A DNA stretch of 34,015 nucleotides from a virus: the IMG/VR virus record IMGVR_UViG_3300027985_000621, positions 1 through 34,015 of that record. The stretch is one strand, 5' to 3'. This document shows, in pieces, positions 7,094 to 9,803 of the stretch. The notes under the pieces are model-generated. The model was given only the letters and a program-made list of their open reading frames with translations, searched no databases and was not told the origin of the DNA. The stretch's first letter is position 1, and each line of letters starts with the position of its first letter. A program made the position numbers and the translations under genes.

Positions 7094-7309
7094 TCAGGCG
7101 TCGGGCAGTCGCTCGAGCCAGGCGTCCAGGTCGGTGCGGCGGATGATGAGCGCGCCCTTGGCTCCGCGCTTGGCGGGCAGGGGCGGCGGGAACGTCTTCG
7201 GGTCGGTCGCGTGGATCGCGCGCCGCAGCGTGGAGACCCCGGCTGCCCGCTGGTACTCGGCGGCGATCGGGAGCGTCATCCACTCGGGCCAGGTCGTCGT
7301 GGCGGGCAT
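7094..7309 (-). CDS. xis: excisionase-like (Xis/RDF) winged-helix DNA-binding protein
   Basis: 71 aa, ATG at 7309 overlapping the Cro-like stop (TGATG). The layout is that of HTH_17/AlpA-like excisionases: an N-terminal helix pair (MTLPIAAEYQ, GVSTLRRAIH) with the turn, a Pro-rich wing (PPPLPAKRGAKG), a strand (LIIRR) and the typical final helix TDLDAWLERL. Such proteins bind near attP and direct the integrase to excise. Position as second gene of the early operon, beside int/attP on the other side of the switch, supports this. It could also be a transcription regulator of the same fold. Confidence 0.65.
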   Translation of the reverse strand: MPATTTWPEWMTLPIAAEYQRAAGVSTLRRAIHATDPKTFPPPLPAKRGAKGALIIRRTDLDAWLERLPDA

Positions 7310-7530
7310 CAGGCGACCTCGTCCACGACGTAGGTGATGGCGTCCAGCGGGACGCCGAGACGGGCGGCGAGGGCGCGGGCCACGTCGGGGGCCGGCTGCT
7401 TGCGGCCCTTCTCGATGTTGGTCAGGTAGCCGGGGCTGATGTCGCAGTCCACGGCGAAGACACCGTGCTTGATGCCGACCGCCTCGCGCAGGGCCCTGAC
7501 CGCCGCCCCGTTCACTCGCCGCTGTGCCAT
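7309..7530 (-). CDS. XRE-family regulator, Cro-like, first gene of the early operon
   Basis: 73 aa from the ATG at 7530. One helix-turn-helix fills the protein: AAVRALREAVGIKHGVFAVDCDISPGYLTNIEKGRKQP, of which GYLTNIEKG is the recognition-helix signature of XRE domains (shown in parts: helix 2 GVFAVDCD, helix 3 SPGYLTNIE). No dimerisation or protease domain follows, which fits Cro rather than a CI-type repressor. It is transcribed divergently from the second XRE gene and leads the early operon. No ribosome-binding site precedes the ATG; a promoter spaced to start transcription on the ATG itself implies a leaderless message. Confidence 0.8.
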   Translation of the reverse strand: MAQRRVNGAAVRALREAVGIKHGVFAVDCDISPGYLTNIEKGRKQPAPDVARALAARLGVPLDAITYVVDEVA

Positions 7531-7566: not shown

Positions 7567-7692
7567 GCAGGATACGGAAAGATCATGAAAGTGACTGTGA
7601 CCTGCGGTAACGCCGTGTAACTACACGCATGGTTTCCCGCTGTGACCGGGTAGCCTGGCCCGCGTCACACCCTTGCTTTCCTGCTCTTTCCC
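7552..7692. promoter_or_regulatory. immunity-switch intergenic region with repeated operator-like motifs
   Basis: Between the divergent XRE genes the motif GGAAAGA occurs at 7553-7559 (inside the promoter spacer) and 7576-7582, and inverted at 7685-7691 (just upstream of the repressor ribosome-binding site); the outer pair extends to a 9-bp match GGGAAAGAG/CTCTTTCCC. A 14-bp dyad CGTGTA-AC-TACACG lies at 7614-7627. TGTGAC occurs at 7596-7601 and 7641-7646, and its inverse GTCACA at 7664-7669 and 7704-7709. These are candidate binding sites for the two regulators; which motif belongs to which protein is not visible. Confidence 0.45.
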
Positions 7693-7708: not shown

Positions 7709-8038
7709 ATGATCAGCGGTCAGGAGATCCGCGAGGGTCGCGAGCGCGCGCGGATGACCCAGGCCGAGCTCGGCCAGGTGGTCGGAGTCTCGGCGCGGAC
7801 GGTCGGGAACTGGGAGCGCGGCGAGACCGTCCCGCGCAACCGCGAGGGCGCCCTGCGCGAGGCCATCACGGGCGGGCCGCGCGCGACACCGGCACTGGAT
7901 CAGGCCAGCGACGCCGAACTGCTCGCCGAGGTGGCGCGGCGGATGGGTCCCCGGGTCTCGACGGTCACCGACGTGCGGGGCCTATCGTCGCGTCCTCCAG
8001 AGCCTGAGCCACCAGGTCATCACGACTCGGACCGGTGA
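7709..8038 (+). CDS. XRE-family immunity repressor candidate, 109 aa
   Basis: Start chosen at the ATG at 7709 because GGAG lies eight bases upstream; an earlier in-frame start lacks one. A full XRE helix-turn-helix covers residues about 2-55: EIREGRERARMTQAELG, VVGVSARTVGNWERGE, VPRNREGALREAI. A second helix SDAELLAEVARRMG follows at about 70-85, a common tail in actinophage repressors, then a Pro/His-rich end without structure. It is divergent from the early operon and lies on the same strand as, and upstream of, attP and the integrase, the usual place of the repressor in actinophages. The choice of repressor versus Cro between the two XRE genes rests on this layout. Confidence 0.7.
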   Translation: MISGQEIREGRERARMTQAELGQVVGVSARTVGNWERGETVPRNREGALREAITGGPRATPALDQASDAELLAEVARRMGPRVSTVTDVRGLSSRPPEPEPPGHHDSDR

Positions 8039-8319: not shown

Positions 8320-8353
8320 GCTCGCATGGCGGGATCGCTCGCACCTGGGATCG
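8320..8353. repeat. interleaved short direct repeats left of attP
   Basis: GCTCGCA occurs at 8320-8326 and 8337-8343, and GGGATCG at 8331-8337 and 8347-8353, giving two interleaved repeats with a 16-17 base period. Phased repeats next to attP are typical places for excisionase binding; here this is inference. Confidence 0.3.
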
Positions 8354-8356
8354 TGC

Positions 8357-8379
8357 GATGGCTGACACGATGGCTACAG
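8357..8379. promoter_or_regulatory. P-arm pair of integrase arm-type sites
   Basis: GATGGCTGACA (8357-8367) and GATGGCTACAG (8369-8379) form direct repeats 12 bp apart. An equivalent pair with the same orientation and spacing lies on the other side of the core. Paired 10-11 bp direct repeats on both arms are the known arrangement of arm-type sites for L5-like tyrosine integrases. Confidence 0.6.
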
Positions 8380-8395
8380 GGAGCCTCTGACGACG

Positions 8396-8438
8396 AACGG
8401 CCCGCCCCGGCGTCGATGCTGGTGGCGGGCCGTTTCTT
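8396..8438 (+). terminator. intrinsic terminator before attP
   Basis: An 11-bp perfect stem (AACGGCCCGCC at 8396-8406, GGCGGGCCGTT at 8424-8434) with a 17-base loop is followed on the plus strand by a TTTCTT run. It would stop transcription from the repressor side before attP and the integrase. On the minus strand no T-tract follows. Confidence 0.7.
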
Positions 8439-8440
8439 GG

Positions 8441-8490
8441 TGGCTCCCCCGACTGGACTCGAACCAGTAACCCTCTGATTAACAGTCAGA
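8441..8490 (-). other. attP: attP core: 3' half of a tRNA-Asn(GTT) gene
   Basis: Read on the minus strand, 8490-8441 gives the tRNA from the anticodon stem to the 3' end: stem TCTGA, loop CTGTTAA with anticodon GTT, stem TCAGA, variable loop, T arm ACTGG-TTCGAGT-CCAGT, acceptor strand CGGGGGA, discriminator G and an encoded CCA. No D arm or 5' acceptor strand is present beyond 8490, so this is not a tRNA gene but the segment shared with a host tRNA-Asn attB. Integration would restore the tRNA using the phage copy of the 3' half; strand exchange probably occurs near the anticodon loop (8479-8485). Confidence 0.85.
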
Positions 8491-8536
8491 GACTGCGGTA
8501 CGGTGAGGGGGCCTGGAAAGCGGTCCTGACGTGCAG

Positions 8537-8545
8537 TGATATGGT
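8537..8545 (+). promoter_or_regulatory. extended -10 promoter candidate for the integrase
   Basis: TGATATGGT matches an extended -10 element (TG-n-TATGGT). No good -35 box is present at the standard distance, as is common with extended -10 promoters. Transcription would begin near 8552, which places the first in-frame starts inside the message at 8574 and 8586 and argues against the ATG at 8541. Confidence 0.4.
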
Positions 8546-8572
8546 CCGTGCGTACCCAGTGGATAGCCTGAG

Positions 8573-8595
8573 GATGGCTACAGAGATGGCTAAAG
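8573..8595. promoter_or_regulatory. P'-arm pair of integrase arm-type sites, overlapping the int start
   Basis: GATGGCTACAG (8573-8583) and GATGGCTAAAG (8585-8595) repeat with a 12-bp period in the same orientation as the P-arm pair; the first is identical to the P-arm copy at 8369. The ATG inside each repeat is a possible integrase start, so integrase binding here could block its own expression. Confidence 0.6.
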
Positions 8596-9803
8596 CCCGC
8601 AAGCGTCGGCAGTACGGCACCGGCAGCGTGCACCAGCGCGCCTCCGACGGCCGGTTCATCGGCACGATCGAGGCCGGATGGACCGCCGCCGGCACCCGCA
8701 GGCGCATCACCGTCTCGGCCAAGACCGAGGCCGAGTGCCGCCGCAAGATCGAGGCCAAGCAGCGCGAGATCGCCAAGACCGGGCTCCCGGCCCAGGGCCT
8801 GTCGGCCCGGACCACCGCGAAGGCGTGGTCGACCACCTGGCTCGCCGAGCTCGAGCACCACGCACGCCCCCGCTACTACGCCACCGATGCCTCGGTGGTG
8901 CGTCGCTGGATCGTGCCGACCATCGGCCACAAGGCGCTCGCGGACCTGACTCCCGCGGACGTGCGCGCCGTCACCGAGGCTGTGCGCAAGGCCGGGAACA
9001 GCACGACCACCGCCGGCTACGCCCAGGGGGTGCTCATTCGCATGCTGCGCGCGGCCATCGTCGAGGGCCATCCGGTGCCCGAGCGGCTCCTGCACCTCAA
9101 GGCGCCCGGCAAGGCCACGTCCGACCGCGACGCGATCCCGCTGCCCGACGCGCTCGCGCTGCTCAAGGTCGCCGAGGCCCGGCGGGACCAGGCGCGGTGG
9201 GTGGCGGCGCTGCTCCAGGGCATGCGCCAGGGCGAGTGCCTGGGTCTGACGTGGGAGGCCGTCGACCTCGACGGCGGTGTGCTCGACGTCTCCTGGCAGC
9301 TCCAAGCGCTGCCCTACAACGTGCCGCACGACCGGTCCTCGGGCTTCCGGATCCCCGACGGCTACGAGGCCCGGCACCTGACCAGAGCCTGGCACCTGGT
9401 GCGCCCGAAGTCCTCCGCCGGGCGGCGGGTGATCCCGATCGTCGCCTGGATGGACGGCGCGCTGCGCCGGTGGCAGACGCTGGCTCCCGACTCGCCTTAC
9501 GACCTGGTGTGGCCACGTGCTGACGGCCAGCCACAGCGCGGCGCGGACGACCGCGAGGCCTGGTACGCACTCCAGGTCGCAGCGGATGTGCGGCACGCCG
9601 CCAGACGCCCGTACATGCTCCACGAGGCCCGGCACACCACCGCGACCCTGCTCCTGGAGGGTGGCGTCTCCGAAGGGGTGATCACGGCCATCATGGGGCA
9701 CTCGAAGATCGCCACCACGCGCGGCTACCAGCACGTGTCGCAAGCGCTCGCGCGCCAGGCCCTGGACGGCATGGCGGAGCGTCTGAGGTTGACGTCGACC
9801 TGA
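8574..9803 (+). CDS. int: tyrosine integrase
   Basis: 409 aa from the ATG at 8574; ATGs at 8541 and 8586 are in frame, but a promoter-like -10 covers 8541. The N-terminal part is a basic arm-binding domain (KARKRRQYGTGSVHQ, then DGRFIGTIEAGWT), followed by a SAM-like core-binding domain (TTWLAELEHHARPRYY, TPADVRAVTEAV). The catalytic domain has Arg about 218 (GMRQGECLGL), Lys about 279 (VRPKSSAGRR), His-x-x-Arg at about 340-343 (HEARHTTATLLLE), His about 366 (IMGHS) and the nucleophile Tyr about 375 (TRGYQHV). All active residues are present. It recombines attP (8441-8490) with a host tRNA-Asn gene; excision should need the Xis-like protein. Confidence 0.95.
   Translation: MATEMAKARKRRQYGTGSVHQRASDGRFIGTIEAGWTAAGTRRRITVSAKTEAECRRKIEAKQREIAKTGLPAQGLSARTTAKAWSTTWLAELEHHARPRYYATDASVVRRWIVPTIGHKALADLTPADVRAVTEAVRKAGNSTTTAGYAQGVLIRMLRAAIVEGHPVPERLLHLKAPGKATSDRDAIPLPDALALLKVAEARRDQARWVAALLQGMRQGECLGLTWEAVDLDGGVLDVSWQLQALPYNVPHDRSSGFRIPDGYEARHLTRAWHLVRPKSSAGRRVIPIVAWMDGALRRWQTLAPDSPYDLVWPRADGQPQRGADDREAWYALQVAADVRHAARRPYMLHEARHTTATLLLEGGVSEGVITAIMGHSKIATTRGYQHVSQALARQALDGMAERLRLTST

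Follow-up and report, generated by a model that had tools for sequence, protein, structure and literature searches.

The window (i.e. the whole 34,015-bp IMG/VR viral record that was analysed, 72% G+C, in which no terminal repeat was found) carries a tyrosine integrase gene, the 3' half of a tRNA-Asn gene just upstream of it (crossover centre ~8482), two pairs of direct repeats on either side of this core and, further upstream, a group of HTH genes:

7097..7309 (-): candidate excisionase, a small HTH_17-like protein of ~70 aa (Pfam HTH_17 18.4 bits, cut-off 27)
7309..7530 (-): HTH regulator, probable repressor (HTH_31/HTH_3; PHROG transcriptional repressor families)
7709..8038 (+): divergent HTH regulator (HTH_3/HTH_31)
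8357..8367 (+): P1, proposed arm-type site, outer copy on the left, GATGGCTGACA (arm bases 6-8 degenerate)
8369..8379 (+): P2, proposed arm-type site, inner copy on the left, GATGGCTACAG; four prophages have homologous pairs at attR
8395..8435 (+): hairpin, situated between core and P pair (RNA fold -38.3 kcal/mol, z -5.2; self inverted repeat)
8441..8491 (-): attP core, 3' half of tRNA-Asn(GTT) (Rfam tRNA 28.5 bits, gathering 29)
8526..8535 (+): accessory element CTGACGTGCA (family form CTGACCTGCA), one mismatch in this copy
8573..8583 (+): P'1, proposed inner right arm-type site, GATGGCTACAG, holding ATG 8574
8585..8595 (+): P'2, proposed outer right arm-type site, GATGGCTAAAG, holding the in-frame ATG 8586
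8574..9803 (+): tyrosine integrase (Pfam PF00589, PF14659, PF22022; alignment)

The strand-exchange segment is likely TTAACAG (8479-8485), within the anticodon stem-loop (8473-8491), and a tRNA-Asn(GTT) gene is also used by the Nakamurella prophage L035. ARAGORN found no complete tRNA in the 34,015-bp record, as expected since the core is half a gene, and a tRNA 3' half with both arms adjoining is the structure expected of an unintegrated attP. The accessory element, situated between core and P', begins 44 bp past the crossover centre and 47 bp ahead of P'1. Judging from its predicted fold, the hairpin at 8395..8435 is probably a rightward terminator; a stringent scan for T-run terminators found none there, and a scan for sigma-70 promoters found none. 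A group-II-intron Rfam match (8322-8470, E 0.35) was set aside as chance, the candidate excisionase had no PHROG match, and a sequence resembling the accessory element (TGACCTGCGGTAA, 7598-7610) was noted in the intergenic stretch that separates the two divergent HTH regulator genes. In megablast searches against phages only a short patch was matched (1446-1543, 91% DNA match over 98 bp to gene 55 of Gordonia phage Moosehead), the rest of the record being without match.

The integrase reading frame opens at 8541 and runs to 9803, with in-frame ATG codons at 8574 and 8586 (both within the right-hand repeats), one or the other of which is probably the start; residues are counted here from the Met at 8574. 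The proposed right arm sites themselves (8574-8597) code for the integrase N-terminus (M-A-T-E-M-A-K), as they likewise do in the closest relative, L023 (M-A-A-Q-M-A-A); in most relatives the right pair lies tens of bases upstream of the int start. The catalytic tyrosine recombinase domain is present (PF00589, E 7.6e-14), and in the alignment (A1) R218, K279, H350, R353 and Y385 are invariant and H376 nearly so (R..K..HxxR..H..Y). For the N-terminal domain, Pfam gave no arm-domain match and Foldseek, queried with a model of modest confidence (mean pLDDT 69), no significant structural match; the model predicts strands at 18-21, 28-36 and 42-49 and a helix at 52-69, which would place residues 22, 31, 44 and 46 on strands or at strand ends. 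The closest annotated phage integrases, from Propionibacterium, Gordonia and Cluster K mycobacteriophages, share ≤38% identity with it.

Anatomy of the four repeats

A preliminary description, made from the letters of the sequence, had reported GATGGCT-type repeats at 8357, 8369, 8573 and 8585 and had read them as arm-type sites of the adjacent integrase. A scan of the 34,015 bp bears out their anatomy: these are the only plus-strand copies of GATGGCT (GATGGCTG at 8357, GATGGCTA at 8369), they form two direct pairs of one orientation with a 12-bp period within each pair, and the 11 bases said to be identical at 8369 and 8573 are exact at both (GATGGCTACAG) and occur nowhere else. Many more copies elsewhere, which the description had considered telling against its reading, were not seen, as GATGGCT recurs only on the minus strand (two copies, 5880 and 21477). 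The consensus GATGGCTAMAG, which it had proposed to count, is unenriched when up to two mismatches are allowed (9 found versus 6.0 expected), and its count is uninformative. Furthermore, the placement of the pairs 'about equally far' from the core holds approximately, the facing repeat edges being ~103 bp (left) and ~91 bp (right) away from the crossover centre (~8482). The 8-bp unit of the arm sites in this phage is TGGCTACA; the outermost left copy is degenerate past GGCT (TGGCTGAC), and this degenerate copy is found again in the closest relative.

By itself the repeat anatomy is only modest evidence against chance, since a 7-mer with two equal-lag pairs inside 240 bp turned up in 2 of 300 Markov sequences, and comparative evidence is therefore required to decide the case. 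It is this figure, together with the fact that two of the four copies lie in frame and encode M-A-x-x-M-A, that speaks for the copies having arisen by chance or as a coding repeat (MATE-MAK) at the int start; we find such an origin barely conceivable, given that the left pair lies outside int and that the right pair keeps its 12-bp period in most relatives even though it is located there in untranslated DNA, tens of bases ahead of the gene.

Paired repeats in relatives and at prophage ends

The comparison drew on integrases 43-72% identical to that of this phage (from viral and genome contigs), with a small number of more distant ones added. Most relatives have homologous pairs of 12-bp period ahead of int. 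A perfect self-match (9/9) at lag 12 immediately upstream of the gene was present in 20 of the 45 relatives, lag 10 having 5 such elements and the remaining lags 0-2. The repeat unit varies among elements (TGGCTACA, TGGCTCCC, TGGCCCCC, TGGGTACA, TGGCTACC and others), and in intact attPs (including those of Doucette, Whitney and Jace) a second pair, of the same unit and orientation as the right one, lies to the left of the core. No pair could be recognised upstream of the related integrase genes L006, L014, L018 and L021, in which attP may lie elsewhere or have been lost. In L012 1452, L065 and L067 the arm units were observed to be one base longer in both copies of the pair (TTGCTTACA, GTGTAACA and GGGTTACA).

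On integration of a prophage, the left pair is expected at the opposite end, adjoining the tRNA that is restored there. We examined this distal end in four prophages (L023 Actinotalea, L035 Nakamurella, L029 Oerskovia and L028 Sediminihabitans), in all of which a second core copy was located, the arms being 39-49 kb apart. Each of the four has a distal pair of its own repeat variant (lag 12; 11 in L093), placed 60-95 bp to the left of the second core copy and adjoining a complete tRNA-Arg, -Asn, -Ala or -Thr. The left arm of the Actinotalea prophage (attR, L091) is almost the same as that of this phage, including its degenerate outer copy (GATGGCTGAC). In this phage, as in the attL and attR of the four relatives, the core that is shared with attB has arm sites to its left and right. 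Moreover, in a set of 14 elements the left and right arms of one and the same element (P and its own P') agree at 7.43 of 8 positions, as compared to 4.72 when shuffled (0/100,000).

These positions bear on the possibility that a phage transcription regulator (e.g. the HTH proteins 7309-7530 or 7709-8038) uses the repeats as operators to control int, and that they have no part in recombination. The int start codons fall within the right pair, a plausible place for an operator, and two HTH regulators are encoded nearby; the pairs, however, flank the core and come to lie at opposite ends of the prophage, the copies of GATGGCT outside the attP region are on the minus strand only (as given above), and the repeat sequence tracks residues of the integrase (see below). 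We therefore regard operators as very unlikely.

Co-variation of integrase residues and arm bases

In a column-wise scan of N-terminal residues against arm bases, a few couplings were dominant, and the coupled residues were confined to positions 22-46 of the integrase. In a set of 47 elements (all chosen by hand, with five arm registers set by hand, and Doucette and Anatole excluded), using residue classes that are generic but were picked after the first scan, residue 31 agrees with base 4, residue 46 with base 6 and residue 44 with base 3 in 47/47 elements each, and residue 22 with base 8 in 43/47. On a tree built from the rest of the integrase protein, the first three pairings correspond to 8, 7 and 6 inferred joint changes, respectively, counts that allow only roughly for kinship among elements sharing ancestry. 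With unedited registers (35 elements) the arm copies in agreement number 70/70 (residue 31), 70/70 (residue 46), 69/70 (residue 44) and 68/70 (residue 22). The 7,168 tests made on the remainder of the protein all gave phi values of 0.8 or lower. A Mantel test on whole-domain distances, the data set of which held two wrong reading frames, was not significant.

This co-variation is the pattern expected if the N-terminal domain contacts the arm bases, and from it we propose a code in which Arg at residue 44 would specify G3, Arg/Lys at residue 31 G4 (a small residue, C4), Lys/Arg at residue 46 C6, and Arg at residue 22 A8 (Asp/Asn/Ser, C8). The integrases of Whitney, Jace, L065, L067 and L083 fit it, and Boilgate, Fionnbharth, DarthP and MacnCheese (arms TGGGTACA) carry Arg22, Arg31 and Arg44 as it predicts. 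Yuna, Phrank and Syra333 fit at bases 3, 4 and 6 and deviate at base 8, and the Propionibacterium phages Anatole and Doucette (L085, L086) have lag-12 pairs upstream of int yet are off the code.

Excisionases also bind direct repeats in attachment arms, and the four repeats could accordingly be sites of an excisionase or a host factor in place of the integrase. The coupling, however, is to residues of the integrase N-terminal domain, the specificity of a host factor would not vary from phage to phage, and it is a constant element (GACCTGC, see below) that behaves as a host-factor site, and not the variable repeats; this assignment too is very improbable.

Taken together, the pairs upstream of int in relatives, the distal pairs, the match between left and right arms and the residue-base co-variation lend strong support to the reading of the preliminary description, and we conclude that the four repeats are very probably the arm-type sites (P1 P2 - core - P'1 P'2) of the integrase 8574-9803. 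Arm-type sites tend to be postulated from repeats, and tests of them are few; as repeats, far-end partners and tracking residues agree here, calling them in silico becomes possible for this integrase family, and the question of what sets arm specificity, raised for phages of Cluster K (PMC3203893), can be put to the test for each base.

Attachment-site geometry and comparison with known systems

The distance from the centre of the anticodon loop to P'1 falls into separate classes: 87-91 bp in 19 of 28 elements, 97-103 in 7 and 110 in 2, with no values between; the spacing changes in steps of about one helical turn. CTGACCTGCA begins 42-44 bp from the centre in 15 of the 28 elements (11 of these with ≤1 mismatch), and its position is unchanged whether P' is near or one turn further away. 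In most carriers the centre of the heptamer GACCTGC lies at +48 to +50, on the P' side (left-side copies at the attL of prophages were disregarded because that side is host DNA). In Boilgate and L009 it is found at about -52 and, inverted, at +43, and a copy or near-copy of TCTGACCTG adjoins the core in D29 and in several attPs of Cluster K. In all, CTGACCTGCA (a GACCTGC core, then an A/T-rich stretch) was seen in this phage and at about 20 related loci, ~49 bp from the crossover on the P' side. Scanning viral contigs for a tRNA T-arm combined with TCTGACCTGC returned 103 matches, mostly chance; the 6 with an integrase downstream all have a gap of 54-58.

That GACCTGC is constant while arms and cores change suggests a site for a shared, perhaps host, DNA-bending factor, which would stand in place of the H' site of lambda. 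Titles and abstracts on attP report no such element in connection with CTGACCTGCA or GACCTGC, and ChIP of mIHF found no common motif (PMC6155035). We put at about even the chance that both parts of the following hold, i.e. that the N-terminal domains follow a portable code (as set out above) and that the attPs carry a previously unreported, position-locked GACCTGC ~49 bp off the crossover, bound by a shared and probably host-encoded DNA bender. The constant heptamer may be a lead to the host-factor step in the integration of actinobacterial phages, which is poorly defined.

In the mechanism that we propose, the integrase N-terminal domain (a predicted three-stranded sheet plus helix) would read TGGCTACA, probably via the major groove, with residue 44 contacting base 3, residue 31 base 4, residue 46 base 6 and residue 22 base 8, and the core-binding and catalytic domains would act on the tRNA-Asn anticodon stem-loop (8473-8491). 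With a 12-bp period, each arm would accommodate a pair of adjacent N-terminal domains separated by about one helical turn, and an integrase tetramer could in this way bridge arms and core. The recombination partner would be the host tRNA-Asn gene, yielding an attL in which the host 3' side is joined to P' and int, and an attR composed of the P pair, the phage-supplied 3' half and the host 5' half, with an intact tRNA. Furthermore, since the int start codons lie inside P'1 and P'2, integrase bound there would probably lower int expression and so repress its own gene. The arrangement fits an intasome of the lambda type, a complex that has been described (PMC4880445).

The preliminary description had also called the arrangement L5-like. 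When L5 is represented by its close relative D29, the likeness lies in the paired arm sites around a tRNA-derived core and in the 12-bp lag of the left pair; the D29 integrase, in contrast, is similar over residues 81-132 only (34%, E 3e-4), not over its full length, and its arm sequence is TGCGACCTT as compared to TGGCTACA in this phage. 'L5-like' is hence valid for the architecture, not for the sequence family. L5 itself has direct pairs plus several additional arm sites (PMC3203893).

Among Cluster K phages, pairs of putative arm sites were noted in Boilgate and Fionnbharth (PMC10865867), which resemble this phage in having TGGGTACA pairs around a tRNA anticodon-loop core and residues 22, 31 and 44 that fit the code, and differ from it in integrase sequence (~35-37% identity), in base 4 (G with Arg31), in their target (tRNA-Lys) and in the place of the accessory element. 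CrimD and other K1 phages have two pairs of 11-bp repeats around the core, for which N-terminal residues 17 and 19 were proposed to set arm specificity (PMC3203893); their P3/P4 are inverted relative to P1/P2, whereas all four sites are direct here. The Gordonia phages Jace and Whitney likewise have direct pairs to the left and right of the core, and residues that fit the code, but are ≤37% identical, with some extra copies and, in Whitney, a P' lag of 13. In Cluster J, pairs of direct arm repeats are known, arm-like repeats overlap the int start codon and integrase autoregulation has been suggested (PMC3706429); there, however, attP lies downstream of int and the start-codon repeats are extra and inverted, whereas in this phage the P' pair itself carries the start codons. 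In E. coli KplE1, arm sites of the integrase encoded by intS overlap with the promoter of that gene in attL, and the gene is under negative autoregulation (PMC2951348); this is another integrase in another host, and autoregulation in our phage is argued from site position. In tRNA-dependent lysogeny a short core breaks the host tRNA and the phage supplies a replacement (PMC10865867); here, by contrast, the core spans the whole tRNA 3' half, and the possibly incomplete record holds no tRNA gene.

Paired direct arm sites are already known from L5, Giles, Cluster J and Pixie, and pairs of which one is inverted from CrimD (PMC3203893, PMC3706429), and this phage adds another case. The literature searched, with most subscription journals outside its coverage, holds no report of the residue-base code, of the quantised spacing or of the GACCTGC element. 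New here in comparison to these systems are the proposed code, GACCTGC at ~49 bp from the crossover and the spacing steps of a helical turn.
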